From Acidimicrobiaceae bacterium (GTDB lineage Bacteria > Actinomycetota > Acidimicrobiia > Acidimicrobiales > RAAP-2): a DNA stretch of 36,899 nucleotides. Where the stretch lies: NCBI GenBank assembly GCA_027306755.1, contig DAHUZE010000060.1, positions 1-36,899 of the forward strand. The letters are read 5' to 3'. Of this stretch, positions 4,545 to 23,898 are shown in pieces. Both the position numbers and the translations under genes were made by a program. Within the stretch, counting starts at the first letter, position 1. Every line of letters starts with the position of its first letter. Under the pieces are notes generated by a model that was not told the origin of the DNA, searched no databases, and saw only the letters and a list, made by a program, of their open reading frames with translations.

Positions 4545-4788
4545 TAGCCCCCTTGCCGAGTGGGACGGCCATTCGACCGTTCCACCTCACCGGATCCCGC
4601 CGATGAGTGCATCCCCAAAACTTTCCCCAGTGCTGCAGTGGTGACGCAGCGTTGCAAGCCTACTGCCTTTGCGACCAGGGGTCGTGCCACTGCGCGGCCG
4701 CTGCCAGCCGCCGGTGTGGCCCGGCGCCGCGCCGGCCCGGCGCCGCTCCGTCCGCCGCATCGGGGTTCTGCGAGGCGCCGCCTGCCCG

Positions 4789-4794
4789 TAGGAT
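4789..4794 (+). promoter_or_regulatory. Candidate leaderless -10 TAGGAT (carboxyltransferase gene)
   Basis: 8 nt upstream of ATG 4803. Confidence 0.45.
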
Positions 4795-4802
4795 GCGCGG
4801 GC

Positions 4803-6158
4803 ATGGCGTCGGTGGTCGCGACAGGACGGTCGGTCTCGGTTCGCTCCGGCGTGGACGGCACCGTGGCGGTCGGGGTGGAGCTCTTGGAGGGCCGGCGGAT
4901 CGTGCACGCCCGGACGTCTTCGGACTACCGGCGCGGTGCCCTGGCCCGGCACGACGGCGAGAGCCTCACCCGCGCCGCCCAGCTGGCCAGGGAGCTGCGG
5001 ATCCCGCTGGTGCTGGAACTGTCCTCCAGCGGCGCCGACGTCTCGGTGGGGATCGACGCTCTCCATGGCTGGGGCGGTGCGGCAGCCGCGGTGGCCGCCT
5101 GCTCGGGCATCGTCCCGGTGATCGCCGCCGCCGTCGGGCCGGTGGTGTCGGGGCCGGCCCTCCTCCTGGGTCTCGCCGATCTCGTGATCATGGCTCCCGA
5201 GGCCGTGGCATTCGTGTCAGGCCCGGCGATGGTCGCGGCATTCACCGGCGTCCGACTGGCGCCACGGGAGCTCGGCGGGGCCGCCGTCCATGCCACCGCC
5301 AGCGGGCTGTGCGCCATCGAGGCCGACGACGTGCTGGACGCCGTGGCCGAACTGCTGGAGTTCCTCCCCGACCACGCGGATGAAGAGCCGGCGGTCTTGC
5401 CGTCCGGGGACCCGGGCGACCGGCTGGCTCCAGAGCTCCGGACGGTCATCCCCCCGGCAGAACGTGCCTCCTACGACGTGCGGGACGTGATCAGGGCCAT
5501 CGCCGACGACGGGGCCTTGTCGGAGGTCTGGATGCGGTGGGCCCCCCAGCTGGTGACCTCCTTCGCCCGGCTCGGAGGTCGAGCTGTCGGGGTGGTGGCC
5601 AACCAGCCGCGTTCCCTCGCCGGCACCCTGGACATCGCGGCGTCCCAGAAGGGCGCCCGCTTCGTGCGGCTCTGCGACGCTTTCAACCTGCCGATCATCA
5701 CGCTGGTGGACACGCCCGGCTTCCTTCCAGGCAAGGACCTGGAGTGGCGGGGCATGATCCGCCACGGCGCGGAGCTGGTCTTCGCCTACGGGGAGGCGAC
5801 CGTGCCTCGCCTGTGCGTGGTCCTGCGCAAGGCGTTCGGCGGCGCCTACATCGTCATGGACTCCAGGGGGCTTGGGAACGACCTCTGCGTGGCGTGGCCG
5901 CAGTCCGAGATCGCCGTGATGGGCGCCCCCGGCGCCGTCCAGATCCTGCACCGTCGGACAGCGCCGGCAGATCGGGTGGCCAAGGAGGCCGAGTACCGCG
6001 AGCAGCTGCTCACGCCGTGGGTGGCCGCCGAACGCGGCTTGGTCGACGAGGTGATCGATCCGGCGGAGACGCGGATCATCCTTCACCGCGCGCTTCGGGC
6101 GCTGGCCACGAAGCGGGAGCTGCTCCGGGGGCGCAAGCACGGGGGGGGCCCGCTGTAG
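4803..6158 (+). CDS. Acyl-CoA carboxylase carboxyltransferase (beta-subunit family)
   Basis: C-half FVRLCDAFNLPIITLVDTPGFLPGKDLEWRGMIRHGAELVFAYGEATVPRLCVVLRKAFGGAYIVMDSRGLGNDLCVAWPQSEIAVMGAPGAVQILHRR is characteristic. Confidence 0.88.
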   Translation: MASVVATGRSVSVRSGVDGTVAVGVELLEGRRIVHARTSSDYRRGALARHDGESLTRAAQLARELRIPLVLELSSSGADVSVGIDALHGWGGAAAAVAACSGIVPVIAAAVGPVVSGPALLLGLADLVIMAPEAVAFVSGPAMVAAFTGVRLAPRELGGAAVHATASGLCAIEADDVLDAVAELLEFLPDHADEEPAVLPSGDPGDRLAPELRTVIPPAERASYDVRDVIRAIADDGALSEVWMRWAPQLVTSFARLGGRAVGVVANQPRSLAGTLDIAASQKGARFVRLCDAFNLPIITLVDTPGFLPGKDLEWRGMIRHGAELVFAYGEATVPRLCVVLRKAFGGAYIVMDSRGLGNDLCVAWPQSEIAVMGAPGAVQILHRRTAPADRVAKEAEYREQLLTPWVAAERGLVDEVIDPAETRIILHRALRALATKRELLRGRKHGGGPL

Positions 6159-6590: not shown

Positions 6591-6741
6591 CCAGTGTCAA
6601 CAAGCCGCCTTCGCCGGTGAGGCGACGGCGGCGCCCGTCACGAACCGAGCGACAGCGCGGCCGCGGTGGCCGTCCCGCGGGATCGGCCTGAACGCGTCCG
6701 TCCCGTTGCGCCCAAGGCAACGGCGCCCGCCCCGGCGCGAA

Positions 6742-6747
6742 TATCCT
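6742..6747 (+). promoter_or_regulatory. Candidate leaderless -10 TATCCT (pilT)
   Basis: 6 nt upstream of GTG 6754. Confidence 0.45.
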
Positions 6748-6753
6748 TGCGGC

Positions 6754-7851
6754 GTGGACCGACGCGATCTGGACCGGCTGCTCTCGCTCCTCAGTCAGTG
6801 GGAAGCGTCTGACCTGCATCTCAAGGCCGGCGTGGGACCCCGGGTGCGCATCGACGGAGAGCTGCAGCAGATCGCCAACGAGCCGCGATGCACCCCGGAT
6901 GACACCGAGGTCGTGGCCCGGGCCATCATGTCGCCGGAGGTGGCCGCCGTCTTCGACAAGAACCACGAGGCGGATTTCGCCTATTCGGTGGGCGGGGTCG
7001 GCCGGTTCAGGGTGAACGCGTACTTCCAGCGCAGCTCGGTCGCTCTTGCATTCCGCCGAGTCCTCTCGAACCCGGGGTCGGTGAGCGATCTGGGCCTGCC
7101 GCCCGTGATCAGCAAGCTTGCGGAGGAGCGCCGGGGGCTGATCCTGGTAACCGGGCCGACCGGATCGGGCAAGACCACCACGCTGGCGGCGATGATCGAC
7201 CACATCAACCGCGGCCGCACCTGCCACATCATCACCATCGAGGACCCGATCGAGTACCTGCACAACGACCGGATGGCCTCCATCAGCCAGCGTGAGGTCG
7301 GGTTCGACACCAATTCCTTCCCGTCGGCGATGCGGGTCGTCCTGCGCCAGGATCCTGACGTCATCTTCGTAGGAGAGATGCGGGACATGGAGACGGCCGC
7401 CGCTGCCCTGACGGCAGCCGAGACCGGTCACCTGGTGCTCTCGACGCTCCACACCATCGACGCCACCGAGACGATCTCGCGGGTGGTGGACTTCTTCCCG
7501 CCTCATCAGCAGAAGCAGATCCGCACCTCGCTTGCCGGGTCGCTGAAGGGGACGATCGCCCAGCGGCTGGCGCGGCGGGCCGACGGCCAGGGCCGGATCC
7601 CGGCGGTGGAGGTGATGGTTGCCAACGGGCGGATCCGCCAGTGCATCGAGGACGTCGAGCACACCAGCGATATCGCCGACATCATCGCCGACGGCGAGTA
7701 CTACGGCATGCAGACCTTCGATCAGAGCCTGGCCCAGCACCTGGCGACGGGCTCGATCTCCCTGGATGAGGCACTGGAAATGGCGACCAACCCCCACGAC
7801 CTGCGGGTCACGCTGGAGCGCCGGGGCCTGGTCCGCACCGGAAGGGCGTAG
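6754..7851 (+). CDS. pilT: Type IV pilus retraction ATPase PilT
   Basis: SDLHLKAG, Walker A GPTGSGKTTT, DPIEY, RQDPDVIFVGEMRDMETAAAALTAAETGHLVLSTLHT, QRLARR. GTG at 6754. Confidence 0.94.
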   Translation: MDRRDLDRLLSLLSQWEASDLHLKAGVGPRVRIDGELQQIANEPRCTPDDTEVVARAIMSPEVAAVFDKNHEADFAYSVGGVGRFRVNAYFQRSSVALAFRRVLSNPGSVSDLGLPPVISKLAEERRGLILVTGPTGSGKTTTLAAMIDHINRGRTCHIITIEDPIEYLHNDRMASISQREVGFDTNSFPSAMRVVLRQDPDVIFVGEMRDMETAAAALTAAETGHLVLSTLHTIDATETISRVVDFFPPHQQKQIRTSLAGSLKGTIAQRLARRADGQGRIPAVEVMVANGRIRQCIEDVEHTSDIADIIADGEYYGMQTFDQSLAQHLATGSISLDEALEMATNPHDLRVTLERRGLVRTGRA

Positions 7852-7859
7852 CGAGGGGG

Positions 7860-9422
7860 TCAGCGCGGGGGGAACCGGGATGCGCCCGGGAAGTTGCCGT
7901 AGAGCTGCTCGTCCTGGCCGTCGGGCCCGTAAGTGAGGGCCTCCACCAGGAGATCGCCACCCACGAACGCCCCTTTCCATGAGCCGCCCAACCCGCCGAA
8001 CACCTCTTCCCTGTCACCGCGGCTCCGGGGCTTGTTGATGCCGACCTTGAATGCCTGGAGCTCCTCGGCCACCTGCGTGGCGAGATCCGGATCGTCCGTG
8101 GCGATGCTCGCCACCAGGGAGCCGTTGGAGGCGTTCATGGCCGCAACCAGCTCGGCGGTGGTATCCACGACCACCACCGAATCCAGCGGGCCGAACGGCT
8201 CGGCGTGGTGCAGCGACCACGACGCCGCCGGTTGGAGCACGCATGCCGGGGCCACGTAAGCGGCGGTGTCCTGCACGTCCAGGAACCGGCCGTCGCCGAC
8301 CGAGCCGCGGTAGAGGGGAATGCCGCCGCCCCGCACCGCCTCGTCGAACTGGGCTCCCAGGTCCGCGGCCTTGGTGGCGTGGATGACCGGCCCGAAATCG
8401 AGCTCCGGCAGCGGGTCGTCGGGATGCTCGACCGCCAACGGGTGCCCGAACGTGAGGGCCCGGACGACGGGCAGGTAGGTCTCCAGGAACGCCGGGAAGA
8501 GCCGGCGCTGGACCACGTAGCGCGGGTATGCCGTACAGCGCTGCTTGGCGTACTCGAAGCCCTTGCGCATGTGCTGGGCCAGCAAGTGCCACTGCGAGAA
8601 GTCCCAGATGCCCCAGGCGTTCAGCCCCTCTTGCTCGAGCATGTGCCGGCGCCCGGTGTCCGCCAGCGACACGGCGGCCCGCCGGCCGTTGGCCCGGCCC
8701 CCGACGAACATCAGGGCACCGATGCCCTCGGAGCGGATGAGCACGTCGCCCAGGCGCGAACCCATGCCGGAGAGCAGCGTCACGGGGAGCCCCGCCCTGC
8801 GCATCAGGGCGTGCGCCAGCGTGAGCGCGTGAAAGCCTCCCTGACTGGGCGTCTTCGCCACCACGGCGTTGCCGGTCAGGACTTGCACGAGCTCGGCGTG
8901 GACCTGGACGCTCATCGGGTAGTTCCAGCTGGCGATGTTGGACACCGGGCCGGGGAGGGGCTGGCGCATCCCTCCCCCCGGCGCCTGCAGCTGCCGCTCG
9001 ATCTGCCCCAGGTACCAGCGAGCCCCGTCGATGCAGCGATCCACATCCGCGCACGCCAGCCGCCAAGGCTTGCCGATCTCCCAGACCAGGAGCACAGCGA
9101 GGAGATCCCGGTGCTCGCTCAGCGCATCCGTCGCCTCGGCCACGCGGGCCCGTCGGTCGTCCAGGTCGACCTTCGACCAGGTCTCGTGCTCGTCGCAGGC
9201 GAATTCGACGGCGGCCATCGCCTCGTCCCGGTCCATCATCGGAGGCCCAGGGATCGGGGTGCCGTCCACGGCGTTCACGTGGTCGCCCGGGATCCCGACG
9301 CGCCGCCACTCCCCTCGCGTCAGGTTCAAGAGGCGATCGGAGTCGAAGGCCTCGGGGGCCGCACGCGTGCAGCGACCGTAGGTCTCCCACCAGGAGGTGC
9401 CGGGCTTCAACTGGAGCGCCAT
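7860..9422 (-). CDS. Aldehyde dehydrogenase superfamily protein
   Basis: SNIASWNYPMSVQVHAELVQVLTGNAVVAKTPSQGG; Cys region KQRCTAYPRYVVQ; HAEPFGPLDSVVVVDT; 520 aa. Confidence 0.85.
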   Translation of the reverse strand: MALQLKPGTSWWETYGRCTRAAPEAFDSDRLLNLTRGEWRRVGIPGDHVNAVDGTPIPGPPMMDRDEAMAAVEFACDEHETWSKVDLDDRRARVAEATDALSEHRDLLAVLLVWEIGKPWRLACADVDRCIDGARWYLGQIERQLQAPGGGMRQPLPGPVSNIASWNYPMSVQVHAELVQVLTGNAVVAKTPSQGGFHALTLAHALMRRAGLPVTLLSGMGSRLGDVLIRSEGIGALMFVGGRANGRRAAVSLADTGRRHMLEQEGLNAWGIWDFSQWHLLAQHMRKGFEYAKQRCTAYPRYVVQRRLFPAFLETYLPVVRALTFGHPLAVEHPDDPLPELDFGPVIHATKAADLGAQFDEAVRGGGIPLYRGSVGDGRFLDVQDTAAYVAPACVLQPAASWSLHHAEPFGPLDSVVVVDTTAELVAAMNASNGSLVASIATDDPDLATQVAEELQAFKVGINKPRSRGDREEVFGGLGGSWKGAFVGGDLLVEALTYGPDGQDEQLYGNFPGASRFPPR

Positions 9423-9484
9423 CGGTCCATACTGCCTGGCGCAGCACCCCTCCGGCGACGCGGGCACGCCCCGGACGGCGAGCG

Positions 9485-10231
9485 TCAGGACCGGGCGAGC
9501 ACCGCCGAGGCGATCACGCCCGCGAACGATCCGGCCAACATGACCGGCAGCGGGGGCGGCCGTTTGCTGGCGACGCTGGTGGCGACGGCCGCCGCCACCA
9601 GCCATCCGGCAACGAGCGGGCCGCCACCAGCCCACAGCGCGCCCGCCGCCCATCCGATCGAAACGAGCATGGTGGCGCGACGCCGGCGGCCACTGCGGTC
9701 GGCCCGGTCGATCCCGAGGGTGGCGCCCGCAACCAGGGCGCCGCCGGCTGCGGCCCATGCCGTGGCGAGGGGATGGCCGAGCGCCGCTTGCACAGGTGCG
9801 AGCGCGGCCGCACCAAGCGCCGCTAGGACGGCGACGACCGTGGGGACCGGAGCCCCGTCGGCATCCACAAGGGCGGCGACGATGGTGCAGCTGCCCACCA
9901 GGGCCACCGGCGGGACCAGCCAGTGCGACCGGAGCGCCCCGGCCGCCAGGAGGAACGCGCCAGCGGTGGCCAGCTCCACCAGGGGGTAGCGACCCGAGAC
10001 GGGCGCACGACAATGGCGGCACCGCCCCCGCAGAACGAGCCAGGACACCACCGGGACGAGGTCGACAGCGCTGAGCTGGACGTCGCACGACGTGCAGTGC
10101 GACGGCGGATGAACGATCGAGAGATGCCGCGGGACGCGGTAGACGACCACATTGAGGAAGGAGCCGACCAATAATCCGACGCCGCCTGCGGCGAGGAGGG
10201 TGACCGCCTCCGCCGCGCCCCCGGTGCCCAC
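9485..10231 (-). CDS. Prepilin peptidase-like protein (PilD/A24 family), apparently lacking the GxGD motif
   Basis: GSFLNVVVYRVPRHLS...CTSC...CRHCRAPVSGRYPLVEL is the PilD N-terminal domain; C-terminal multi-TM peptidase region follows. Confidence 0.85.
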   Translation of the reverse strand: MGTGGAAEAVTLLAAGGVGLLVGSFLNVVVYRVPRHLSIVHPPSHCTSCDVQLSAVDLVPVVSWLVLRGRCRHCRAPVSGRYPLVELATAGAFLLAAGALRSHWLVPPVALVGSCTIVAALVDADGAPVPTVVAVLAALGAAALAPVQAALGHPLATAWAAAGGALVAGATLGIDRADRSGRRRRATMLVSIGWAAGALWAGGGPLVAGWLVAAAVATSVASKRPPPLPVMLAGSFAGVIASAVLARS

Positions 10232-10239
10232 CGTGAGGG

Positions 10240-10245
10240 ACTGTA
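10240..10245 (-). promoter_or_regulatory. Candidate leaderless -10 TACAGT (prepilin peptidase-like gene)
   Basis: 8 nt upstream of GTG 10231. Confidence 0.45.
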
Positions 10246-10469
10246 GCGGGGGTCCTACTGGAATTGCGGCCTACCAGTACCGTTCCGGGGCGAAACGAGC
10301 TAGTCTTTTTCCCGTTGGGTGCAGCACTTCGCTCATGGCGGAGCGCTGCTGGGATGGGGTGACGGGATGGGAACCGGACGCTCGCCAGGGCGCGTCAGCG
10401 CGCGTGGTGTGGCGGTGGTTGCCCGATCCCTCCTTGCTCCCGGCGGCGCGCCGGAGTCGAAGGAGGGGA

Positions 10470-13313
10470 ATGACTGGGGAGTCCGCGAGGTCGGTGCAGG
10501 GTCTGCCCGAGCAGCGCGCCCTGCGGTACATCGATCTGTCGCGCACGACGTTCGCCACCGACGCGGCCTCCCTCCTTCCCGAGGAGACGGCGCGCCGGTA
10601 CAGAGCCGTCCCTGTAGAACGTCGCGGCGACGTGACCCTCGTGGCGGTGGCCAACCCGGCCAATCCGCTCACGCTGGAAGCGCTTCGGGAGGGAGCCGGA
10701 TGCGACGTCACCACCGTTGTCGCCTCGCCCGACCAGGTCACGACGGCCATCGCCGCCCTGTACGGGGGTCCGACGCGTAACAGCCGCCGGCGCGGTCAGC
10801 ACGTGGCAGCGGACGGGCCGGAAGGGGCGGACGGGCCTATCTTCGAGACGCTTCGGTTCGCCTCGTCCGAGGCGCTGGCGGCCGACAACGGCCTCGCGGC
10901 CTATGGTGCCCGAGAGGAGATGGTGAACGGCTCGAGCTCCCTGGAGGAGTCCCTGCGGTCGGTCCTGGTCCCGCCCGAGGCGGATCGCAACCTTCCGGTG
11001 CTCGACCCGTCTGCCGGGGGAGACGACGAGGCACAGGGAGGGGAACCTCCCGCCGGGCCGATCGGCGCCAGCGTCGTCAACGGGGCGCGGTCCGGCGGGA
11101 CCCCGACCCCCCACAACGGCGCTCCGCCGGCCGCCGGTGCGACCGCCAACGGCGCGGCTCCCAACGGCGCGGCTGCCAACGGCGCGATCTCCAACGGCGC
11201 GGCTGCCAACGGCGCGGCAGGCGGCGGCGCGGCAGGCGGCGGTCCGGCCAAGGCCGGACCTGGAGCTCCACCCGAGGAAGCTCCGCCCGGCGACAACTGG
11301 CCCAGCGGATCGGTCGCCGGCGTTTCGGTCGCCGACACGCCGGGCAGCGGCCTGGGATCGATGAAGGACCACCCGCATACCCCGGCTTCGGGCCTGTCCT
11401 CCGGACGGGAGATCACGGTCACGTCCAGCCCCGGTCATCCGGGGTTGGACAAGGAGCCCGCTGGCGCCCATCCCACCCACACTTCCGCCACCGAGCCGCC
11501 CGACGGGGATGCAAGGCCGCAGGAGGACCCGGCAGCAAGGCCGGGCGGCCCCGCCACCCCGCCACCACCTCCGCCGGGGTTCGGATCCGTGGAAGGCGAC
11601 TCGGCCATGGAGGAGGCATCGGTCCACTGGCCGCCGCTGGCCCGGGTCCTGGTGCGGGCGGGGACGGTCTCGTTCGACCAGATGGTGCACGCCCTTCGGG
11701 CCCACCGTGAGTCCGGGGAGCCTCTCGCCCGGTACCTGTTCAGCCAGAAGCTGGCGACCGAGGACGACCTCGTCCAGGCGATGGCCGAAGAGGTCGGGCT
11801 GGCATACGTGGACCTGACGGCCTACCCGGTCGACCCCAACGTGGCGGCCCTGGTGCCCGAGGCGGTCGCCCGCCGACACATGGTCCTGCCCATCCGGCTC
11901 GAAGAAGGTGTCCCGGTGGTGGCCATGGCGAACCCCACCGATGTCTTCGCCATGGACGACCTCCGCAGCATCATGGGGCGCAATTTCACCCCGGTGGTCG
12001 CCACCCGCTCGCAGATCGAGCTCCACCTGCGCCAGCTCCAGGAGTCCTCGGGCGGAGACGTCCAGGAGGCAGCCCAGAGCGCGGCCGGCGCGGCGGGGGC
12101 CGCCGGCGGCGGGTTCGAGCTGGAGAGCCTGCAGTCGGTGGTGGAGGACGCGCCGATCGTCCGCTACGTCAACCTGCTCATCCTCCAGGCCCTCAACGAG
12201 CGGGCGTCGGACATCCACATCGAGCCGACGCCCAAGCGGCTCCGCATCCGGTTCCGCATCGACGGCGTCATGCACGATGCCAGCTCTGCCTCGCCCGCCA
12301 TCCACAACGCGGTGATCAGCAGGCTGAAGGTCCTGGGCGAGATGGACATCACCGAGCACCGGGTGCCGCAGGAGGGCCGGGTATCGGTCTCCGTCGGAGA
12401 GCGGCAGATCGACCTCCGGTTGGCGATCCTGCCCTCCCAGTTCGGCGAGACGTGCGTCATGCGGCTCCTGGACAAGTCAGCGAGCATCCGCCGCCTTTCC
12501 GAGCTGGGGTTCTTCCCGGACACCTTGGAGCGCTACGCCCAGGCCTACAACCACCCCTACGGCGTCATCCTGGTGACCGGGCCGACCGGCGCCGGAAAGA
12601 CCACCACGCTGTACGCCACCCTGCAGGAGGTCATGTCCTCGGAGAAGTCCGTGGTCACCGTGGAGGATCCGGTCGAGTACCAGATCGACGGGATCACCCA
12701 GGTCCAGATCAACGCCAAGGTGGGCCTGCACTTCTCCACCGCCCTCCGGTCGATCCTCCGAGCCGATCCCGACATCATCTTGGTAGGGGAGATCCGCGAC
12801 ATCGAGACGGCGTCCATCGCCATGGAAGCCGCCCTGTCGGGTCACCTGGTGCTCTCCACCCTCCACACCAATACGGCGGCCGGGACGCCGCTGCGGCTGA
12901 CGGAGATGGGTATCGAGCCCTTCCTGGTGACGTCGGCCGTGGGCGGTGTGCTCACCCAGCGATTGGCCAGGGTCCTCTGCGAGCGGTGCAAGACGCCGTA
13001 CAGTGCGTCGCTGACGGACTTCTACGCGGCCGGCTACCGGGAGGTGGACCTCGAGGAGCTGGACGTCTCCACGCTCTACCGGGCAGCCGGCTGCCGGACT
13101 TGCAGCCACACTGGGTACCACGGCCGGATGCTGCTGGCGGAGGTCATGCCCATCACCGAGGAGATCGAGCGCATGATCATCGAGCAGCAGTCCATCGTCG
13201 CCATCGAACGCCAAGCGGTCGAGCAGGGCATGCGTACGCTCCGGCAGGACGGGCTGCGCAAGGCGCTGGCCGGCTTCACGACGCTCGAAGAGGTCCTGCG
13301 GGTGGTCGTATGA
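10470..13313 (+). CDS. pilB: Type IV pilus assembly ATPase PilB with split MshEN-type N-terminal region
   Basis: MshEN-like segments, Walker A GPTGAGKTTT, ADPDIILVGEIRDIETASIAMEAALSGHLVLSTLHTN, tetracysteine CERC...CRTC. ATG 10470 after AGGAGG. Confidence 0.93.
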   Translation: MTGESARSVQGLPEQRALRYIDLSRTTFATDAASLLPEETARRYRAVPVERRGDVTLVAVANPANPLTLEALREGAGCDVTTVVASPDQVTTAIAALYGGPTRNSRRRGQHVAADGPEGADGPIFETLRFASSEALAADNGLAAYGAREEMVNGSSSLEESLRSVLVPPEADRNLPVLDPSAGGDDEAQGGEPPAGPIGASVVNGARSGGTPTPHNGAPPAAGATANGAAPNGAAANGAISNGAAANGAAGGGAAGGGPAKAGPGAPPEEAPPGDNWPSGSVAGVSVADTPGSGLGSMKDHPHTPASGLSSGREITVTSSPGHPGLDKEPAGAHPTHTSATEPPDGDARPQEDPAARPGGPATPPPPPPGFGSVEGDSAMEEASVHWPPLARVLVRAGTVSFDQMVHALRAHRESGEPLARYLFSQKLATEDDLVQAMAEEVGLAYVDLTAYPVDPNVAALVPEAVARRHMVLPIRLEEGVPVVAMANPTDVFAMDDLRSIMGRNFTPVVATRSQIELHLRQLQESSGGDVQEAAQSAAGAAGAAGGGFELESLQSVVEDAPIVRYVNLLILQALNERASDIHIEPTPKRLRIRFRIDGVMHDASSASPAIHNAVISRLKVLGEMDITEHRVPQEGRVSVSVGERQIDLRLAILPSQFGETCVMRLLDKSASIRRLSELGFFPDTLERYAQAYNHPYGVILVTGPTGAGKTTTLYATLQEVMSSEKSVVTVEDPVEYQIDGITQVQINAKVGLHFSTALRSILRADPDIILVGEIRDIETASIAMEAALSGHLVLSTLHTNTAAGTPLRLTEMGIEPFLVTSAVGGVLTQRLARVLCERCKTPYSASLTDFYAAGYREVDLEELDVSTLYRAAGCRTCSHTGYHGRMLLAEVMPITEEIERMIIEQQSIVAIERQAVEQGMRTLRQDGLRKALAGFTTLEEVLRVVV
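11148..11237 (+). repeat. In-frame 15-bp tandem repeat (~6 copies) encoding NGAAx in the PilB linker
   Basis: aacggcgcggctccc / aacggcgcggctgcc / aacggcgcgatctcc / aacggcgcggctgcc / aacggcgcggcaggc / ggcggcgcggcaggc read directly. Confidence 0.9.
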
Positions 13314-15016
13314 CCATGGCCACCTCCATGCGGGCCGAGTGGTCGAGACGGCTGGGCACGGCGGTGGCCGCGGCCGGGCTCCTGGCCGCGGACACCTCGG
13401 ACGAGCTCGTTGCCGAGGCGGTGCGGAGCGACGCGCCGCTCTCTGCGCTGCTCATCCGCCGGGACATCCTCCCTCCGTCAACGGTGGTGACGATGCTGGC
13501 CCGGGTGGCGCAGCTTCCCGCCGTGGACCTGGCGACCGACCTCCCCACCCAGGACGTGGAGTGGATCCTCCCCCCGAACCTGGCCCGAGACCACCACGCG
13601 CTCGCACTGCGCTCGTCGGGGAACCAGATCGTGGTCGTGTACGCCGAACCACCGGCGGCAGAGGACGTCCGGGCGCTCGGCGAAGCCATCGGCTACCGGG
13701 TGGTTCCCGCGCTCGGTGACCCGGTGGTCATCGAGGCGCTGCAGGAAGCCTCTGCGAAGCGGGGCAATGGCACGACACCGGCGGGGGTTCCGCCGCCAGC
13801 GCGCCTCGCGGCCGCTGCGAACGGGTCGGGGGTCTCCGCCGACGATTCTGCGGCGAGGGCGACGAAGGTTGCGGACGCCCACCATCTCCCGGCGGTGCCT
13901 GACGGCGACGAAGAACCGCTCATGGCCGGCAACCTCGAGCGCGACGGGGTCCCGCTCCATGTGGACGATCTGCTGCGCTATGCCGTCAGCATCGGAGCGT
14001 CGGACCTCCACCTGACCGTGGCCATGCCCCCAACCGTGCGCCTGCACGGTGCGCTCCGGCCGCTGGAGGACGTCGGCCGCCTGGACAACCGGACGCTGCG
14101 CGAGATGCTCTTCAGCATCCTGACGCAGCATCAGAGGGAACAGTTCGAAGCCGAGCACGAGCTGGACACCTCCCACTCCATCGCCGGCGTCGGCCGCTTC
14201 CGGGTCAACGTGTGCATGCAGCGGGGAACGATCGCCGCCGCGCTGCGCCCGATCCCCCATGAGGTGCCGGAGTTCACGACCCTGGGCGTGCCCGAGTCCG
14301 TGTCCGCCTTCGCCAACCTGCGCCGGGGCCTGGTGCTGGTCACCGGCCCGACCGGTTCGGGGAAGTCGACCACCCTGGCCTCCCTGATCGACATCGTCAA
14401 TCGCAATCGGCCACTGCACATCGTGACCGTGGAAGACCCCATCGAGTTCCTGCACGGGCACAAGCGTTCCATCATCACCCAGCGTGAAGTGGGGGCGGAC
14501 ACGTACTCATTTGCCGAGGCCCTGCGCCGTGCCCTGCGCCAGGACCCCGACGTGATCCTGGTGGGCGAGATGCGGGACCTGGAGACCATTTCCACCGCGC
14601 TGACGGCGGCGGAAACCGGCCACCTCGTGTTCGCCACCCTGCACACCCAGGACGCGCCGTCCACCATCGACCGCGTCATCGACGTGTTCCCGGCCAACCA
14701 GCAGGACCAGATCCGGATCCAGCTCGGATCCTCGCTGGCCGGGATCGTCACCCAGCAGCTGGTGCCCACGGTGGACGGCCAGGGCCGCTGCGTCGCCACC
14801 GAGGTCCTCGTGTGCACCCCGGCGATCCAGAACCTCATCCGGGCGGCCAAGACGCACCAGATCTACTCGCTCATGCAGACCGGTGCGCAGTACGGGATGC
14901 AGACCATGGACCAGAGCCTGGTGTCGCTGGTTCGCCAGAACCTCGTCACCCAGGCCGTCGCCCTCGATCGGTGCCGCAATGACGAAGATTTCCGCAACCA
15001 CCTGGCCGGGAGGTAA
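13310..15016 (+). CDS. PilT-type ATPase with N-terminal MshEN-like domain
   Basis: N-term RRLGTAVAAAGLL...PLSALLIRRDILPPSTVVTMLARVAQLPAVDL; C-term PilT (SDLHLTVAMPP, GPTGSGKSTT, RQDPDVILVGEMRDLETISTALTAAETGHLVFATLHTQDAPSTIDRVIDVFP). ATGA overlap with pilB. Confidence 0.92.
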   Translation: MTMATSMRAEWSRRLGTAVAAAGLLAADTSDELVAEAVRSDAPLSALLIRRDILPPSTVVTMLARVAQLPAVDLATDLPTQDVEWILPPNLARDHHALALRSSGNQIVVVYAEPPAAEDVRALGEAIGYRVVPALGDPVVIEALQEASAKRGNGTTPAGVPPPARLAAAANGSGVSADDSAARATKVADAHHLPAVPDGDEEPLMAGNLERDGVPLHVDDLLRYAVSIGASDLHLTVAMPPTVRLHGALRPLEDVGRLDNRTLREMLFSILTQHQREQFEAEHELDTSHSIAGVGRFRVNVCMQRGTIAAALRPIPHEVPEFTTLGVPESVSAFANLRRGLVLVTGPTGSGKSTTLASLIDIVNRNRPLHIVTVEDPIEFLHGHKRSIITQREVGADTYSFAEALRRALRQDPDVILVGEMRDLETISTALTAAETGHLVFATLHTQDAPSTIDRVIDVFPANQQDQIRIQLGSSLAGIVTQQLVPTVDGQGRCVATEVLVCTPAIQNLIRAAKTHQIYSLMQTGAQYGMQTMDQSLVSLVRQNLVTQAVALDRCRNDEDFRNHLAGR

Positions 15017-15069
15017 CCTTTCAGCGGGGATGATTGCGGCGGCATGGGGCCGGCGCGAGGAGGGATGGG

Positions 15070-16293
15070 ATGGCGACCACCTTCGACTACAAGGTCCGTG
15101 ATCGCACGGGCACCCTGATCCAGGGGTCGCTCGACGGCGACAGCTTGCCCTTGGTCGTGAGCCGCCTGCGGTCGATGGGCTACCTGCCTGTCTCCGTCAC
15201 GCCCGTCAACAGCCGCGGGCTCAAGACCGAGGTCGTCATCCCCGGCCTCACGGACCGGATCAAGGCCAAGGATGTGGCCGTGTTCACGCGGCAGTTTGCC
15301 ACGATGGTGGATGCCGGACTCTCGATCAGCCGGGCGCTCACCGTGCTCTCGACCCAGGTGAGCAACAAGTTCCTTGCCATCAAGCTGCGCGAGGTGCGTG
15401 ACGACGTGGAAGTCGGGCTGGCGCTGTCCGACGCGCTGGCGAAGCACCCCAAGGTCTTCGACGAGCTGTACGTCTCGATGGTGCGGGCCGGGGAGCTCGG
15501 GGGTTCCATCGACGTCGTCCTCCGCTCCGTCGCCACACAGCTGGAGAAGCAGGTCGAGCTGGCGCGCAAGATCAAGGGGGCAATGGCGTACCCCGTCGTC
15601 GTCCTGAGCGTGATCGGGATCATTTTCGTGGCGATGATGGTCCTCATCGTCCCGGTCTTCAGCCGCCTGTTCAAGACCCTCGGTGCCCCGCTGCCCACGC
15701 CCACCAAGATCGTGATCGACATCTCCGGCGTGCTCGCCAGCTGGCGGGCCCTGATCGTGGTCGCGGTGATCGTCGGAGCCGTCCTCATCCTTCGGCGCTG
15801 GATCAAGACGGAGAAGGGCCGGCTCAAGTGGGACGCCTTCAAGTTGAAGCCCCCGATCTTCGGACCCCTCGCCCACAAGGCAGCCCTGGCCCGCTTCAGC
15901 TACACGCTGTCCTCGCTCATGTCCTCGGGCGTGCCGGTCATGGAGGCGCTGGACATCGTGGGGCGGGCGTCGGGCAACGCCGTCGTGGCCAAGGCCACGC
16001 AGGAGATCAAGGTGGCGGTCCGCCAGGGTCGCCCGTTCACCGATCCCATGCGCAGCAACCCGCTGTTTCCCCTCCTGCTCGTCCAGATGGTGGAGGTGGG
16101 GGAGCAGACCGGTGCCTTGGACGACATGCTGTTCCGGGCGGCCGGCTACTACCAGGGCGAGGTTGACCAAACGGTGGAGAACCTCTCGTCCATCCTCGAG
16201 CCTCTCATGGTGGTCGTCATGGGCGCCGTGGTCGGCACGGTGATCATCAGCCTCTACCTGCCGATGCTCACGTACATCAAGTACGTCAAGTAG
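15070..16293 (+). CDS. pilC: Type IV pilus platform protein PilC
   Basis: FTRQFATMVDAGLSISRALTVLSTQ...FSYTLSSLMSSGVPVMEALDIVGRASGN...MVEVGEQTGALDDMLFRAAGYYQGEVDQTVENLSSILEPLMVVVMGAVVGTVIISLYLPML. Confidence 0.95.
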   Translation: MATTFDYKVRDRTGTLIQGSLDGDSLPLVVSRLRSMGYLPVSVTPVNSRGLKTEVVIPGLTDRIKAKDVAVFTRQFATMVDAGLSISRALTVLSTQVSNKFLAIKLREVRDDVEVGLALSDALAKHPKVFDELYVSMVRAGELGGSIDVVLRSVATQLEKQVELARKIKGAMAYPVVVLSVIGIIFVAMMVLIVPVFSRLFKTLGAPLPTPTKIVIDISGVLASWRALIVVAVIVGAVLILRRWIKTEKGRLKWDAFKLKPPIFGPLAHKAALARFSYTLSSLMSSGVPVMEALDIVGRASGNAVVAKATQEIKVAVRQGRPFTDPMRSNPLFPLLLVQMVEVGEQTGALDDMLFRAAGYYQGEVDQTVENLSSILEPLMVVVMGAVVGTVIISLYLPMLTYIKYVK

Positions 16294-18194: not shown

Positions 18195-20174
18195 GTGGCA
18201 CCCCCGGACCGCCTCGAGCGACTGACCGACCTCGTGCTGGTGCTACTGCACGCCGGCACCCCGCGCACCCTGGACGAGATCGCCCACACCGTGCCCGGCT
18301 ATCCCGAGTCGCACACCGCACGCCGTCAGACCTTCGAGCGGGACAAGCGGATTCTCCGGGAAGAGGGCATCCCGGTCGTCACCGAGCCGGTGGAGGGGCC
18401 GGAGCAGTACGGGTACCGGATCGACCCGGATGCCTTCTACCTGCGGGACCTCGCCCTCGAGCCCGAGGAGCAGGCGGCACTGCACCTGGCAGTGGCGGGC
18501 GTCCACCTGGGCGATCCGAGCGGGCGGGACGCGCTGGCCAAGCTGGGCGCCTACGGGATGTCCGACGCTGCGCCCGTTGCCGCGCTGGCCCCGCCGCCCG
18601 CCCTGGTGGCACTGTTCTCCGCCGTTCGCTCACAGGCCGAGGTCCACTTTTCGTACCGAGGCCGGGAGCGCGCCGTCGCGCCGGTGGTCCTGCGCTTCCA
18701 CGGCGGCCGCTGGTACCTCGTTGCCTGGGACACCGAGCGCGGTGCAGTCCGCACGTTCCGAGTTGATCGGATGGATGGCGAGCCCGGAGTGGGACCGCCG
18801 GGCAGCGGCGAGCCGCCGGCGGGGGTCGCCGCTGCGCGGGCCTCCCTCGAGCCTTGGCGGCCGGTGGGCGACGACGAGGACGAACCCGTCATCGTTCGGG
18901 TCGACGCGGTGGAGGGGCCACGTGTCGCCGCCGAGGTAGGTCACGATGCAGTGGTGGAGCGCCGGAGCGACGGGGGCGTCGTGCTCCGTCTCGGTGTCGC
19001 CAACTTCGAGGTCCTGCGGTCATGGCTGCTCGGGCTGCTCGACCACGCCGAGCTGGTGGGCCCGCCGCCGGCCCGGGAGGCCGTCATCCACTGGCTCGAA
19101 GCGATGGTGGAGGCCGGTCGCGGGGAAGGCGCGACCTCCGCAGCGGACCGGGCCGGGACACAGGCTTTGCCCGTCGGTCGGGTGCAGCCCGAGGCTGCCT
19201 CTGCGCCCGAGCCGGCCGCGCGCCTGGCGGGGCGCCCCCCGTCCCGCACCGCCAGTGCGCGGCTCCGCCGGCTGCTGGCCATCGTCTCCTGGCTGGCAGA
19301 CGCGGGGGAGGCATCCGTGGCCGAGCTGGCGGCACGCTTCGACATGGACGAGGACGAAGTCGTGCGGGAGCTGGAGCTGGCGGCGTGCTGCGGGGTTCCC
19401 CCCTACACGCCGGACGCCCTTTTGGACATCGTGGTGAGCGAGGAGTCAGTCCAGGCCTTCCTGCCCAGGGACATGGCACGCCCCCGCCGGCTTACCCCCG
19501 CCGAGGGGCTTGCCCTGGCGGCGTCGGCGCGAACGATCCTGGCCGTCCCCGGCGCGGACCCCGACGGCGCGCTGGGCCGAGCGCTGACCAAGCTCGACGC
19601 CGTCCTGGGCGACCACGGGCAGCTGGTGATCGACCTCGACGCCCCCGCCAACCTGGAGGCGGTGCGCGCCGCCGTGGCAGCGGGCCACCAGATGGAGATC
19701 GAGTACCACTCGGTCTCCACCGACGAGACAACCGTCCGCGTGGTGGAGCCGGTTACCGTCGTCGCCCTCGACGGACACTGGTACCTGGACGCCTACTGCC
19801 ACCGGGCCGCCGGGACGCGCCGGTTCCGCGTCGACCGGATGCGCTCGATCCGTCCGCTCGAGGAGCCGGTCGACCCCGCGCTCCGGCGCGCCGTGCTGGA
19901 GGGGAGGGACGACGCCTTCGTCCCCGGACCGGGCGCCACGGCCGTGACGCTGCGGCTGGACCCCCGAGCTGCGTGGGTGGTCGACTCGGTGCCCATCGTG
20001 GCCGAGCACACCTTGGACGGGGGCGCGCTGGAGGTATCGCTGGCCGTTGGCGGGACGGCCTGGTTGGAGCGGCTGCTCCTCCAGCTCGGGACCCATGCGC
20101 AGGTGGTGGCTCCCCCCGATGCCCGCGACGTCGGTGTCCGCGCCGCAGCCCGCGTGCTCGCCGGCTACCGCTGA
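18195..20174 (+). CDS. Fused PafB-PafC-type transcriptional regulator (two HTH/WYL units)
   Basis: Two tandem HTH + WYL units: RLERLTDLVLVLLHAGTPRTLDEIAHTVPGY...FSYRGRERAVAPVVLRFHGGRWYLVAWDTERGAVRTFRVDRM and RLRRLLAIVSWLADAGEASVAELAARFDM...IEYHSVSTDETTVRVVEPVTVVALDGHWYLDAYCHRAAGTRRFRVDRM. Confidence 0.9.
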   Translation: MAPPDRLERLTDLVLVLLHAGTPRTLDEIAHTVPGYPESHTARRQTFERDKRILREEGIPVVTEPVEGPEQYGYRIDPDAFYLRDLALEPEEQAALHLAVAGVHLGDPSGRDALAKLGAYGMSDAAPVAALAPPPALVALFSAVRSQAEVHFSYRGRERAVAPVVLRFHGGRWYLVAWDTERGAVRTFRVDRMDGEPGVGPPGSGEPPAGVAAARASLEPWRPVGDDEDEPVIVRVDAVEGPRVAAEVGHDAVVERRSDGGVVLRLGVANFEVLRSWLLGLLDHAELVGPPPAREAVIHWLEAMVEAGRGEGATSAADRAGTQALPVGRVQPEAASAPEPAARLAGRPPSRTASARLRRLLAIVSWLADAGEASVAELAARFDMDEDEVVRELELAACCGVPPYTPDALLDIVVSEESVQAFLPRDMARPRRLTPAEGLALAASARTILAVPGADPDGALGRALTKLDAVLGDHGQLVIDLDAPANLEAVRAAVAAGHQMEIEYHSVSTDETTVRVVEPVTVVALDGHWYLDAYCHRAAGTRRFRVDRMRSIRPLEEPVDPALRRAVLEGRDDAFVPGPGATAVTLRLDPRAAWVVDSVPIVAEHTLDGGALEVSLAVGGTAWLERLLLQLGTHAQVVAPPDARDVGVRAAARVLAGYR

Positions 20175-20266
20175 GGAAGCCCCCGCCATCGCCCGCACCG
20201 CGCCCGACCGTTGAGGCGCATGCGTGGCCTGCCCGGCGCGGTGTTGGTGCGGAAACGACGGGGCGG

Positions 20267-21772
20267 ATGCTCTTCGTCGCCCGGGTGAGCGACCGCAGCG
20301 GCCGCTACTACCTGTCCGACATGGCCGCAGAGGTGGGAGCGAGCTCCCTGGTGGCCCGAGAGCAGGCCGCCATGCCGGCGCCGGGCCGCTGGACTGGCGC
20401 CGCCGCCCGCGGGCTGGGGTTGTCCGGGCCGGTGGGGGGCGCACCGCTGGCAGCGGTGCTGTCGGGTTGCCACCCGCACGCCGAGCACCGGTTGCGACAG
20501 CGCCCGGGCGCGGTAGCCGGCTACGACCTCGTCTTCGCCGCGCCGAAGTCGGTCAGCATCCTGTTCGGGTTGGGCGGCGCCGACCATGCGGGCGTCGCGA
20601 TGGCGGCGCACCGCGCCGGCGTGGAGACGGCTCAGGCGTACCTCGAGGAGCGGGCGATCGGCGTCCGCGTCGGGACGGGGGAGGACCGACGGACCGCGAG
20701 CGTGCGTGGGATGGTTGGCGCGGCCTTCGACCACGGGGTGAGCCGAGCGCTTGATCCCCACCTGCACACGCATGTTGTGGTGGCGAACATGGCTCAGGGG
20801 CCGGACGGCCGGTGGCGGGCGCTCGACGGGCGCGGTCTCGACGCCCACGCTCGAGCTGCCAGCGCGCTGTACGACGCGCAGTTGCGCCACACCCTGACCG
20901 AGCGCACCGGCGCCCGCTGGTCGCGCCGGACCAGCGGTGCCTATGAGCTCGCGTCGGTGGATCCGGCGGTGCTGGGCGCGCTGTCCGGGCGCCAGGCCGA
21001 GATTCGCGGCCTCCTTCACGGTTCGGGCCTTCGTGCAGCCGCTGCCCCTGGTTCCCGCGACGCGGGCCGAGGAGCGCGGACGCCACCCTCGGCGCGCGCC
21101 CGGGCGGTTGCGTGGGCGTCCACCCGGGACGCGAAGGCGACCGTCGCCGCCCGGACACCCGCCGCGTTGCGCCGCCGATGGCTGGCCGCCGTCGGCGACG
21201 TCGGCTGGACGCCGGAAGACCTTTCGCGGTCACTGGGCGCGCTGGGTCCGCCCGAGCCCGGAACCACCCTGGACGAGCACCGGTTTGCGACGTCGCTCCA
21301 CGCCGGCACAGTCCATGGCGGAGCGACCCGGCGCGAGGTGGTGGCGGCATGGGCCGACGCCGCGGCATCGGGCGTGTCGGGTGCCGACGTACGTGACTGC
21401 ATCGACCAGCTGGCCCGCTGGGACCGCGCCGTGGGCGTTGCCGAGCTCCCGCATCAGCGTGCCGAGCTGCTGGCGTCGCCGCAGGCGCTGTGGGCCCTGG
21501 GGCCACGTCCGGTCCGTCCCGGACGCCTTGCTGTCTGGCAGCACGCCGCAGCGGCAGTGGACCGTGCGCGCGCCCGCGGCGTCGGGCAGGACGTCCGGAC
21601 TGCTCCATGGCATTACCCGAGGCTTTCACCTGCGGGACTCGCCCGGCTCACGACCGAGCAGCTGGCCGCTCACTTGACGGCCACGCGAGCCGTGGCTGAC
21701 GCCCGCCGCCGGCTCGGGCTGCCCACCACGTCTCCTGAGCGCGATGCAGCACGGTCCCGTGGCCGCGCGTGA
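20267..21772 (+). CDS. MobF/TrwC-family relaxase domain protein (no helicase domain)
   Basis: Tyr pair GRYYLSD; GYDLVFAAPKSVSILFGLG; three-His motif DPHLHTHVVVANMAQGPDGRWRALDGR; 501 aa. Confidence 0.88.
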   Translation: MLFVARVSDRSGRYYLSDMAAEVGASSLVAREQAAMPAPGRWTGAAARGLGLSGPVGGAPLAAVLSGCHPHAEHRLRQRPGAVAGYDLVFAAPKSVSILFGLGGADHAGVAMAAHRAGVETAQAYLEERAIGVRVGTGEDRRTASVRGMVGAAFDHGVSRALDPHLHTHVVVANMAQGPDGRWRALDGRGLDAHARAASALYDAQLRHTLTERTGARWSRRTSGAYELASVDPAVLGALSGRQAEIRGLLHGSGLRAAAAPGSRDAGRGARTPPSARARAVAWASTRDAKATVAARTPAALRRRWLAAVGDVGWTPEDLSRSLGALGPPEPGTTLDEHRFATSLHAGTVHGGATRREVVAAWADAAASGVSGADVRDCIDQLARWDRAVGVAELPHQRAELLASPQALWALGPRPVRPGRLAVWQHAAAAVDRARARGVGQDVRTAPWHYPRLSPAGLARLTTEQLAAHLTATRAVADARRRLGLPTTSPERDAARSRGRA

Positions 21773-21831: not shown

Positions 21832-23460
21832 TCAGCGCCAGCGGTCACCGCGTGCAACGGGCAGGGGCATTCGTGCCGGTCCTCGTGGAAGCGCACGGCG
21901 CTCCCGGTCGCGGTCGGGTACCGCTGTGCACCACGGCCACGTGGCGTGGGCGGGAGTCAGCCGGATCCACCCCATGCGGTTCCGTGCGTCCAGGGCCAGA
22001 GCGTGACCCGCGTTCCCCCGGGCGACCACGTCGACCGGAAGGCGGCGCCGCACCACGGCTGCCCGGTTGGTCGAGAGCTGGCGGCCGGCCGCACCCCGGG
22101 ACTGCCCGACGGTCCGGCTGACGACCTCCCGGTCCCCGCTGAGCGCGGAGAGGGTCTCGAGGGTGCGTACGTCGGCGATGCCCCCCAGCACGGCGGTGGC
22201 ACCGAAGAGGGAGACGAAGGCGTCCGCTGCCGGGCCCCATCGCGTGCGACCCTGCGAGAGGTCCTGCAGGCAGGCTAGGGTCAGCACCCCCTGCCCGGCC
22301 CCCTCGCTGACGATTGCCGGCAGGTCGGGCAGCGGCGCGATGTTGGCTGCCTCGTCCAGTGCGAAGAGCACCGGTGGCCGGGCAACGCGGTCACGTGCCT
22401 GCCGGTACGCCGCATCGCGGATCTGGGTCAACATCCCGACCACCAGCGGAGCCACGAGCTGTTGGTCTGCGCCCGGGGCGCATACGTAGATGGTTGCCGA
22501 TCCCTCACAGAACGCCCGGGCATCCAGGAACGTCGGCTCGGTGCTGGCCAGGGCCGCCGTGGAGCGGTATGCGCCCAGGGTGCCGGAGGCAGTCGACCAG
22601 ATCCCGGACTGCTCGCGATCGTCCGTGCTCAGGATTCCGGCAAGGACATCCCCGGCAATCTCTCCTGACGTGCCGCCTGCCGATGCGAGGACGTCGAGCG
22701 CTTGCGCGCCGTCATGGCGGTCGACCCAGCGCAGAACCGTGCGCATCGGCACCTGGTCGAGCGCGGCGGCGTGCAGGAGCGGAGCCAGGAGCGCCGAGGC
22801 CCGCTCGGACCAGTGGCTCTCGGGACCGCCGCCGGCCATCCCCGGTGCGTGCCCCCGTGCCGTGCGGACCATGGCGTCGGCGGTGCGTAGCGCCCCATCC
22901 CACGTGGCCGCCGCCGCCACCGGGGACCATCCGATGCGGTGGACGCCCCGGGGAACTTCGATCGTGCCGCTCGGGTCGAACAGCATGCACCAGCCTGCCC
23001 GCGAGCGCGCTCCCACGGTCTGGCGCAGCACATCGGGTTTGGTGGAGGTGGAGACGACGGGTCCCGGGGCGACGAGCACGTTGGGAACGATGACCGAAGA
23101 CGTCTTTCCCGATCGAGAGGGCCCCAGGACCAGCGTCGAGCGCTCGCAGCCGGACCACGCCCACCCCCGTGCCGTCGCGCCGAGGTAGACGCCGTTGCCG
23201 CGCCCGTCGGGCCCGAGCGCCGCAGCCCGTAACCCGGCCAGGGCTCGTGTCGATGTGCCGGCCCGCGCAGTCGCCAGCGGGGGCACCCACGGGGGCCGCT
23301 CGCGTGGCACCGCAACCTGGACGCGCCCTGCCGTTCTTGACGACGGAACGAGCGGCGCGACGCTCCAATCGGGTGCGGTTCCGCGTGCACTGCGCGCGCG
23401 TCGGCCGTCACGCATGTACAGGAACCGCGTCGCGCGCGCTGCTGTCGGCGCGTCGCACAT
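21832..23460 (-). CDS. VirD4/TraG-like type IV coupling ATPase, without obvious TM segments
   Basis: Walker A LGPSRSGKTSSVIVPN; STKPDVLR; Walker B PPVLFALDEAANIAPLPDLPAIVSEGAGQGVLTLACLQDLSQGRTRWG. Start uncertain; the ORF extends to 23625. Confidence 0.82.
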   Translation of the reverse strand: MCDAPTAARATRFLYMRDGRRARSARGTAPDWSVAPLVPSSRTAGRVQVAVPRERPPWVPPLATARAGTSTRALAGLRAAALGPDGRGNGVYLGATARGWAWSGCERSTLVLGPSRSGKTSSVIVPNVLVAPGPVVSTSTKPDVLRQTVGARSRAGWCMLFDPSGTIEVPRGVHRIGWSPVAAAATWDGALRTADAMVRTARGHAPGMAGGGPESHWSERASALLAPLLHAAALDQVPMRTVLRWVDRHDGAQALDVLASAGGTSGEIAGDVLAGILSTDDREQSGIWSTASGTLGAYRSTAALASTEPTFLDARAFCEGSATIYVCAPGADQQLVAPLVVGMLTQIRDAAYRQARDRVARPPVLFALDEAANIAPLPDLPAIVSEGAGQGVLTLACLQDLSQGRTRWGPAADAFVSLFGATAVLGGIADVRTLETLSALSGDREVVSRTVGQSRGAAGRQLSTNRAAVVRRRLPVDVVARGNAGHALALDARNRMGWIRLTPAHATWPWCTAVPDRDRERRALPRGPARMPLPVARGDRWR

Positions 23461-23898
23461 GCCGACGCCTTGCGCGGTCGATACCGTAAGGAGGGATGTG
23501 CATCGCATCCGAACAAAGGCCGTCAGCGCAGAGAGTTCCGTTGCGCCGCAACAGGAGTTCGCTGATGGCCGCCGTGCACCCACTCGAGTTAGCTGAACAG
23601 GACGGTGTGTGGTTCGTTGCCGCAAATCGTGCCCCGTGTTCCGCGCGGGTCCCTATGCTTGACCTGCAGCCCAAAAGCCCTGGAGAATGGAGGGAACCCG
23701 GTTTGCGTGGACGAGCATTCGAGTCTACGTACACACGGCGGCGATTCGGGCGGCGCACGGCAAGCATCGAACGGAACGGTCGCCGGATGCAGAGGTGGGA
23801 CACGTTGGACCGGGATGCAGGATGGGCGGTGCGACAGCGGATCGCCCACGACGAAGCGAAAGAAGCAAGAACCGAAGAAGCGGTGCAGCAATGCGGAC

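Follow-up and report, generated by a model that had tools for sequence, protein, structure and literature searches.

A PilD-like protein without a detectable peptidase site and a separate aroC-linked A24 peptidase: a putative split prepilin peptidase/N-methyltransferase in an Acidimicrobiaceae bacterium

Introduction

PilD-type enzymes normally both cut and methylate pilus subunits, and the bifunctional prepilin peptidase has two catalytic Asp residues, the second of which lies in a GxGD motif. The usual target of pilin methylation is the Phe at position +1, and A24 peptidases that lack a methylase domain are textbook knowledge. In Pseudomonas aeruginosa PilD, methylation but not cleavage depends on the four Cys residues and on bound zinc, and the Gly and the basic residue beside the third Cys also contribute to methylation (PMC3584216). 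According to a review, a prepilin peptidase always has the peptidase domain and just sometimes the methylase domain, and catalysis of methylation by the A24_N domain alone is likely, albeit formally undemonstrated (PMC4471445). Prepilin peptidases without a methylase domain have been described, and what role the methylation of pilins plays has puzzled the field for more than 40 years (PMC10191384).

The present study concerns the reverse of the known arrangement, namely a methylase domain without a peptidase, which is new in that the literature searched, with most subscription journals outside its scope, yielded no account of an A24_N protein standing alone. The gene in question lies in a stretch of 36,899 nucleotides from an Acidimicrobiaceae bacterium (assembly GCA_027306755.1, contig DAHUZE010000060.1, positions 1 to 36,899), the whole of which is hereafter called the window. 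Like PilD/GspO (A24_N plus Peptidase_A24), the window protein has the four-Cys N-domain, the GSFLN and RYPLVE motifs, a location in a pil operon, and a C-region recognisable as a degenerate A24 domain; unlike PilD/GspO, it lacks GxGD, a conserved first Asp, and a PF01478 match, and the peptidase function would reside in another gene.

The PilD-like protein and its pil locus

The gene is an ORF of 248 aa on the minus strand with a GTG start, at a position common to most orthologs within the genus, and the features relevant to its activities are as follows:

9485..10231, minus strand: PilD-like protein, 248 aa, A24_N kept, GxGD lost (ORF, Pfam, six-frame motif search)
9941..10180, minus strand: A24_N domain (PF06750, IPR010627-type), residues 18-97, GSFLNVVxYRxP...RYPLVE (113-116 bits)
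10010..10096, minus strand: zinc-finger-type CxxC...CxxC (C46, C49, C71, C74), with G69/R70 beside the third Cys (ortholog alignment)
9863..9865, minus strand: codon of D123, the first catalytic Asp position (ortholog and profile alignment)
9674..9712, minus strand: approximate expected GxGD site (GIDRADRSGRRRRA), motif absent (alignment, end of profile match)

The N-terminal PilD domain with intact Cys residues, as described in the original prediction, was recovered by Pfam as PF06750 (A24_N, A24_N_bact; residues 18-97, 113.3 bits, E 5.7e-33), and both the GSFLN and RYPLVE motifs were present. All residues needed for methylation by PilD were found in the window protein, comprising C46, C49, C71, and C74 of CTSC...CRHC together with G69 and R70. 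The reported loss of GxGD was likewise confirmed, since the motif was absent from all six frames of 9300-10300 and PF01478 (Peptidase_A24) gave no match on the window protein even at E<=10; a search of NCBIfam with the same protein also returned no match. In an alignment that included full-length PilDs from this order, RSGRRR-RATML occupied the GxGD columns in the window protein, and its orthologs likewise had non-GxGD residues there. In the AlphaFold model, which is confident (pLDDT 88), the chain forms ten helical segments, of which two adjoin each other. Foldseek against the PDB matched neither this model nor that of the A24 partner described below at E<=0.001, so that, apart from the confident fold, structure contributes nothing positive, and a sequence search of the PDB with a full-length PilD of the same order gave chance zinc-finger matches only.

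The PilD-like gene is divergent from a gene for a PilB-type ATPase, with PilT-like and PilC-like genes nearby:

10464..13313, plus strand: PilB-type extension ATPase (two MshEN plus T2SSE), approximate start (435 bits)
13274..15016, plus strand: PilT-like ATPase with an MshEN domain, approximate start (domain match)
15034..16293, plus strand: PilC/PilG platform protein (T2SSF; domain match)
6706..7851, plus strand: second PilT-like ATPase (T2SSE; domain match)

The pilins of the window genome and its congeners carry a class III signal peptide (EESG/FTLIELMVVLL, the slash marking the cleavage site) with G-1, F+1, and E5, which is of the classical form throughout the genus (...EESG/FTLIELMVVLLIMGILMAIAIPTFLGV), and cleavage after G-1 is therefore expected. 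Several other properties of the window were also recorded. The PilB-like ATPase contains a long low-complexity NGAAANGA-type linker before its second MshEN domain. Downstream of the pil genes, at a distance of a few kb, a TrwC-type relaxase (18854-21772, plus strand) and a VirD4/TraG-type coupling protein (21832-23625, minus strand) are encoded convergently and belong to a conjugative or mobilisable element. At 4560-6158 (plus strand), a single protein matches both Carboxyl_trans and ACCA and represents a fused-type acetyl-CoA carboxylase carboxyltransferase.

Ortholog conservation and selection

A PF06750 gene was found in 12 of the 13 genus members (the window genome included), and in all 12 species it is a pil-region gene of the same kind, with an open and colinear C-region devoid of GxGD. 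A non-GxGD PilD-like gene also occurred in about 14 further genomes of the family, whose other genera are mixed, with many N-only proteins and few full-length ones (G016, G021, and G029). An alignment of 20 orthologs contained 22 invariant residues, all within the N-domain and including GSFLN, R81, Y82, E86, and the four zinc-type Cys (20/20); in addition, G69 was retained in 17 of the 20 and a basic residue at position 70 in all of them. The segment ALVDADGAPVP, originally read as the first Asp region, is indeed present, its Asp being residue 123, but it is not conserved as a catalytic residue, as this position is occupied by D in 13 orthologs, E in three, A in three (L023 among them), and S in one. 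Moreover, an invariant acidic residue was looked for in the C-region of the 20 orthologs and none was found.

Within the genus, dN/dS, obtained by simple pairwise counts, was about 0.25 in the N-domain and 0.36 over the C-region as a whole; it reached 0.60 near the first Asp, the fastest-evolving part tested, and was 0.30 for the A24 core of the partner. This pattern suggests that selection protects the N-domain and has released the peptidase site, whereas the other membrane helices are still somewhat constrained. The value of 0.36, which reflects purifying selection, further implies that the C-region does something beyond decay.

A separate A24 peptidase upstream of aroC

The genome to which the window belongs (G000) encodes a stand-alone A24 peptidase of 248 aa on another contig (L001:1375-2121, minus strand), directly upstream of the chorismate synthase gene aroC. 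This partner matches PF01478 at 50.4 bits, carries VDLRTGLVP and GMGFGDVR, and has no Cys pairs or Cys domain; in an alignment of 24 relatives, D110, P117, and G171xG173D174V175R176 were invariant or nearly so. One PF06750 protein and one PF01478 protein, on different contigs, and no PF06847 (archaeal-type peptidase) were detected in this assembly of 108 contigs, from which a further A24 protein could be missing because it is 82% complete; several congeners likewise have a single A24 besides the N-only gene. Being the only PF01478 protein found where PF06847 is absent, the partner probably acts on the type IVa-like pilins. A second full-length PilD in this genome was rejected, as the sole other A24 protein detected has no Cys domain. 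The earlier proposal that another PilD elsewhere performs the cleavage is thus upheld as to a separate A24 enzyme and revised as to its nature, a Cys-less stand-alone A24 upstream of aroC.

In a profile comparison (E 6e-9), the stretch from residue 79 to residue 173 in the window family paired with the first part of the partner's A24 domain, D123 falling opposite D110, and the match ended just before the partner's GFGD, which suggests that the C-region of the window protein is an eroded A24 domain and not a replacement. At the level of sequence, the window protein and its partner are complementary, each retaining residues that the other has lost. Like TadV/CpaA/FppA and other methylase-less A24 proteins, the partner consists of an A24 core with the Asp and GxGD and without a Cys domain; unlike them, it coexists with a stand-alone methylase-domain protein, is linked to aroC and not to a tad locus, and, among the proteins detected in the window genome, stands alone as a candidate for the maturation of type IVa-like pilins. 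The gene order A24-aroC is the same across several families of this Actinomycetota class, but in some genomes the aroC-linked gene is the sole A24 gene, whereas in the split lineages it would supply the peptidase that PilD has lost.

Co-occurrence across genomes

Genomes were classed as N-only or full-length in a first sample of 61, by HMM scoring, and in another 110 drawn from the class, a few of which also belonged to the first sample. In the first sample, a separate A24 was present in 26 of the 27 N-only genomes (the exception being 70% complete), compared with a further A24 in 4 of the 15 genomes with a full-length PilD (Fisher p 3e-6); in the class draw, the corresponding figures were 4/4 resolved N-only genomes versus 6/56 full-length genomes (Fisher p 4e-4), both p values being optimistic because the genomes are related. 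The link is not strict, since G016 carries a full-length PilD plus a separate A24. The pattern of an N-only protein with a separate A24 was found in six families (f1, f4, f9, f28, f40, and f42), and in G117 (f28) the separate A24 retains its own Cys-bearing N-domain. In most N-only genomes, including G096 and G110, the A24 partner directly adjoins aroC.

In G039, G096, and G110, which belong to three other families, the N-only protein is about 100 aa long, a clean fission, and no peptidase remnant was found 3' of the gene in G039. The smallest clean split example is an A24_N protein of 100 aa that stands by itself in a pil locus (L013:1462-1761), found in G039, whose aroC-linked A24 is L088. 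In the N-only protein of G110 (L239:1989-2435), the canonical CxxC spacing is lost (RCICG...RCCG), so the zinc site may be changing there too. In the A24 tree, the f1 partners formed one clade (99/94) and the G096 and G110 partners another (100/99), and, going by the starred branches, the stand-alone and full-length states must have switched no fewer than three times. The best N-domain tree, which is poorly resolved and too short to count independent losses, had 10 changes, one of them forced by starred branches.

A24_N-only proteins without GxGD were also observed in a Clostridiaceae MAG (L197:1273-1800, with a Cys-less A24 partner, L231) and in a Pirellulales MAG (L199:2908-3915, with the A24 proteins L230 and L236), both of which are possible independent splits outside Actinomycetota. 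In two Campylobacterota MAGs, PilD-like proteins (L160, 288 aa, and L227, 262 aa, both on the plus strand) have GGAD at the GxGD site (AMGGADVIVAG), with the N-domain intact and PF01478 still matched, possibly a real variant of the active-site motif.

Proposed division of labour and its alternatives

Our preferred reading, to which we assign a probability of roughly two in three, is that the prepilin peptidase/N-methyltransferase is naturally split and the window protein is one of its halves, the aroC-linked A24 cleaving in trans and the window protein methylating. Type IVa-like prepilins (..G/FTLIELMVV..) would be cut in trans by the aspartic peptidase of the stand-alone A24 type whose gene lies directly upstream of aroC. 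What the window protein keeps is the membrane-anchored four-Cys zinc-type N-domain that PilD requires for methylating the mature pilin N-terminus; its C-terminal part is a degenerate A24 domain with the peptidase active site lost, and the protein would then methylate the new N-terminal Phe. Judged from the sequences compared, it is close to certain that the window protein would have no peptidase activity, the putative split of the enzyme into two genes is strongly supported, and the aroC-linked A24 likely replaces the lost peptidase function; from the retained methylation residues, we infer that the window protein methylates, alone or complexed with its partner. The suggestion in the original prediction of a peptidase-dead, possibly methylation-only protein next to pilB fits all of these results. 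On the more general proposition, that a stand-alone pilin N-methyltransferase acting in sequence with a separate A24 may have arisen repeatedly among bacteria as the C-terminal domain of PilD was eroded or deleted, we would put even odds.

A non-catalytic role is a good deal less probable, though still to be taken seriously: the N-domain protein could bind prepilins or the stand-alone A24 and thereby restore substrate recognition or dock the peptidase at the pilus machine. Such a role would accord with the purifying selection on the C-terminal helices (0.36), as if the membrane surface matters, with the predicted fold (pLDDT 88), and with the catalytic role of A24_N being formally unproven (PMC4471445); however, the three N-only proteins of about 100 aa have none of those helices, zinc removal from P. 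aeruginosa PilD stopped methylation and not cleavage (PMC3584216), and prepilin peptidases exist that have no methylase domain at all (PMC10191384).

Far less probable is that a decaying and functionless pseudo-enzyme has survived by chance among the pil genes of the operon. The loss of the catalytic motif and, in L023, of the first Asp as well would be expected of such a relic, but the ORF is open and colinear in 12 genus species and about 14 further genomes of the family, and the N-domain has 22 invariant residues and a dN/dS of 0.25.

Slightly lower still do we rate a variant or cryptic active site, the former also raised in the original prediction. On this view, D123 would cleave prepilins together with an acidic residue that lies outside any GxGD, close to where the motif was lost (GIDRADRSG). 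The window protein and most of its congeners' orthologs keep D123, and acidic residues do occur near the lost motif, but this proposal is weakened by the occurrence of D at position 123 in just 13 of 20 orthologs (A in L023), by the fastest evolution being in the surrounding region (0.60), by a C-region without an invariant acidic residue, by a normal A24 enzyme in the same genome, and by the complete absence of the peptidase domain in three related families. Finally, removal of GxGD by a sequence error, frameshift, or misassembly, to which an assembly in 108 contigs might be prone, is excluded for practical purposes, as the original dismissal of a simple frameshift anticipated, because 11 other genus species and many of the family, separately assembled, share the colinear GxGD-less C-region and no frame contains the motif.

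Implications

For annotation, the split arrangement carries two warnings, namely that A24_N alone does not denote a working peptidase and that the gene for an A24 protein beside aroC may encode the actual prepilin peptidase. With the two activities in two genes, nature provides a minimal N-domain protein, as short as about 100 aa, that becomes testable as an enzyme, and two questions are thereby opened to experiment: whether the N-domain alone is a methyltransferase, and what purpose methylation serves. Removal of the PilD-like gene should abolish methylation and leave cleavage untouched, and the apparent split, in an organism described as a soil-type actinobacterium, thus lends itself to studying the purpose of pilin methylation in a natural setting.
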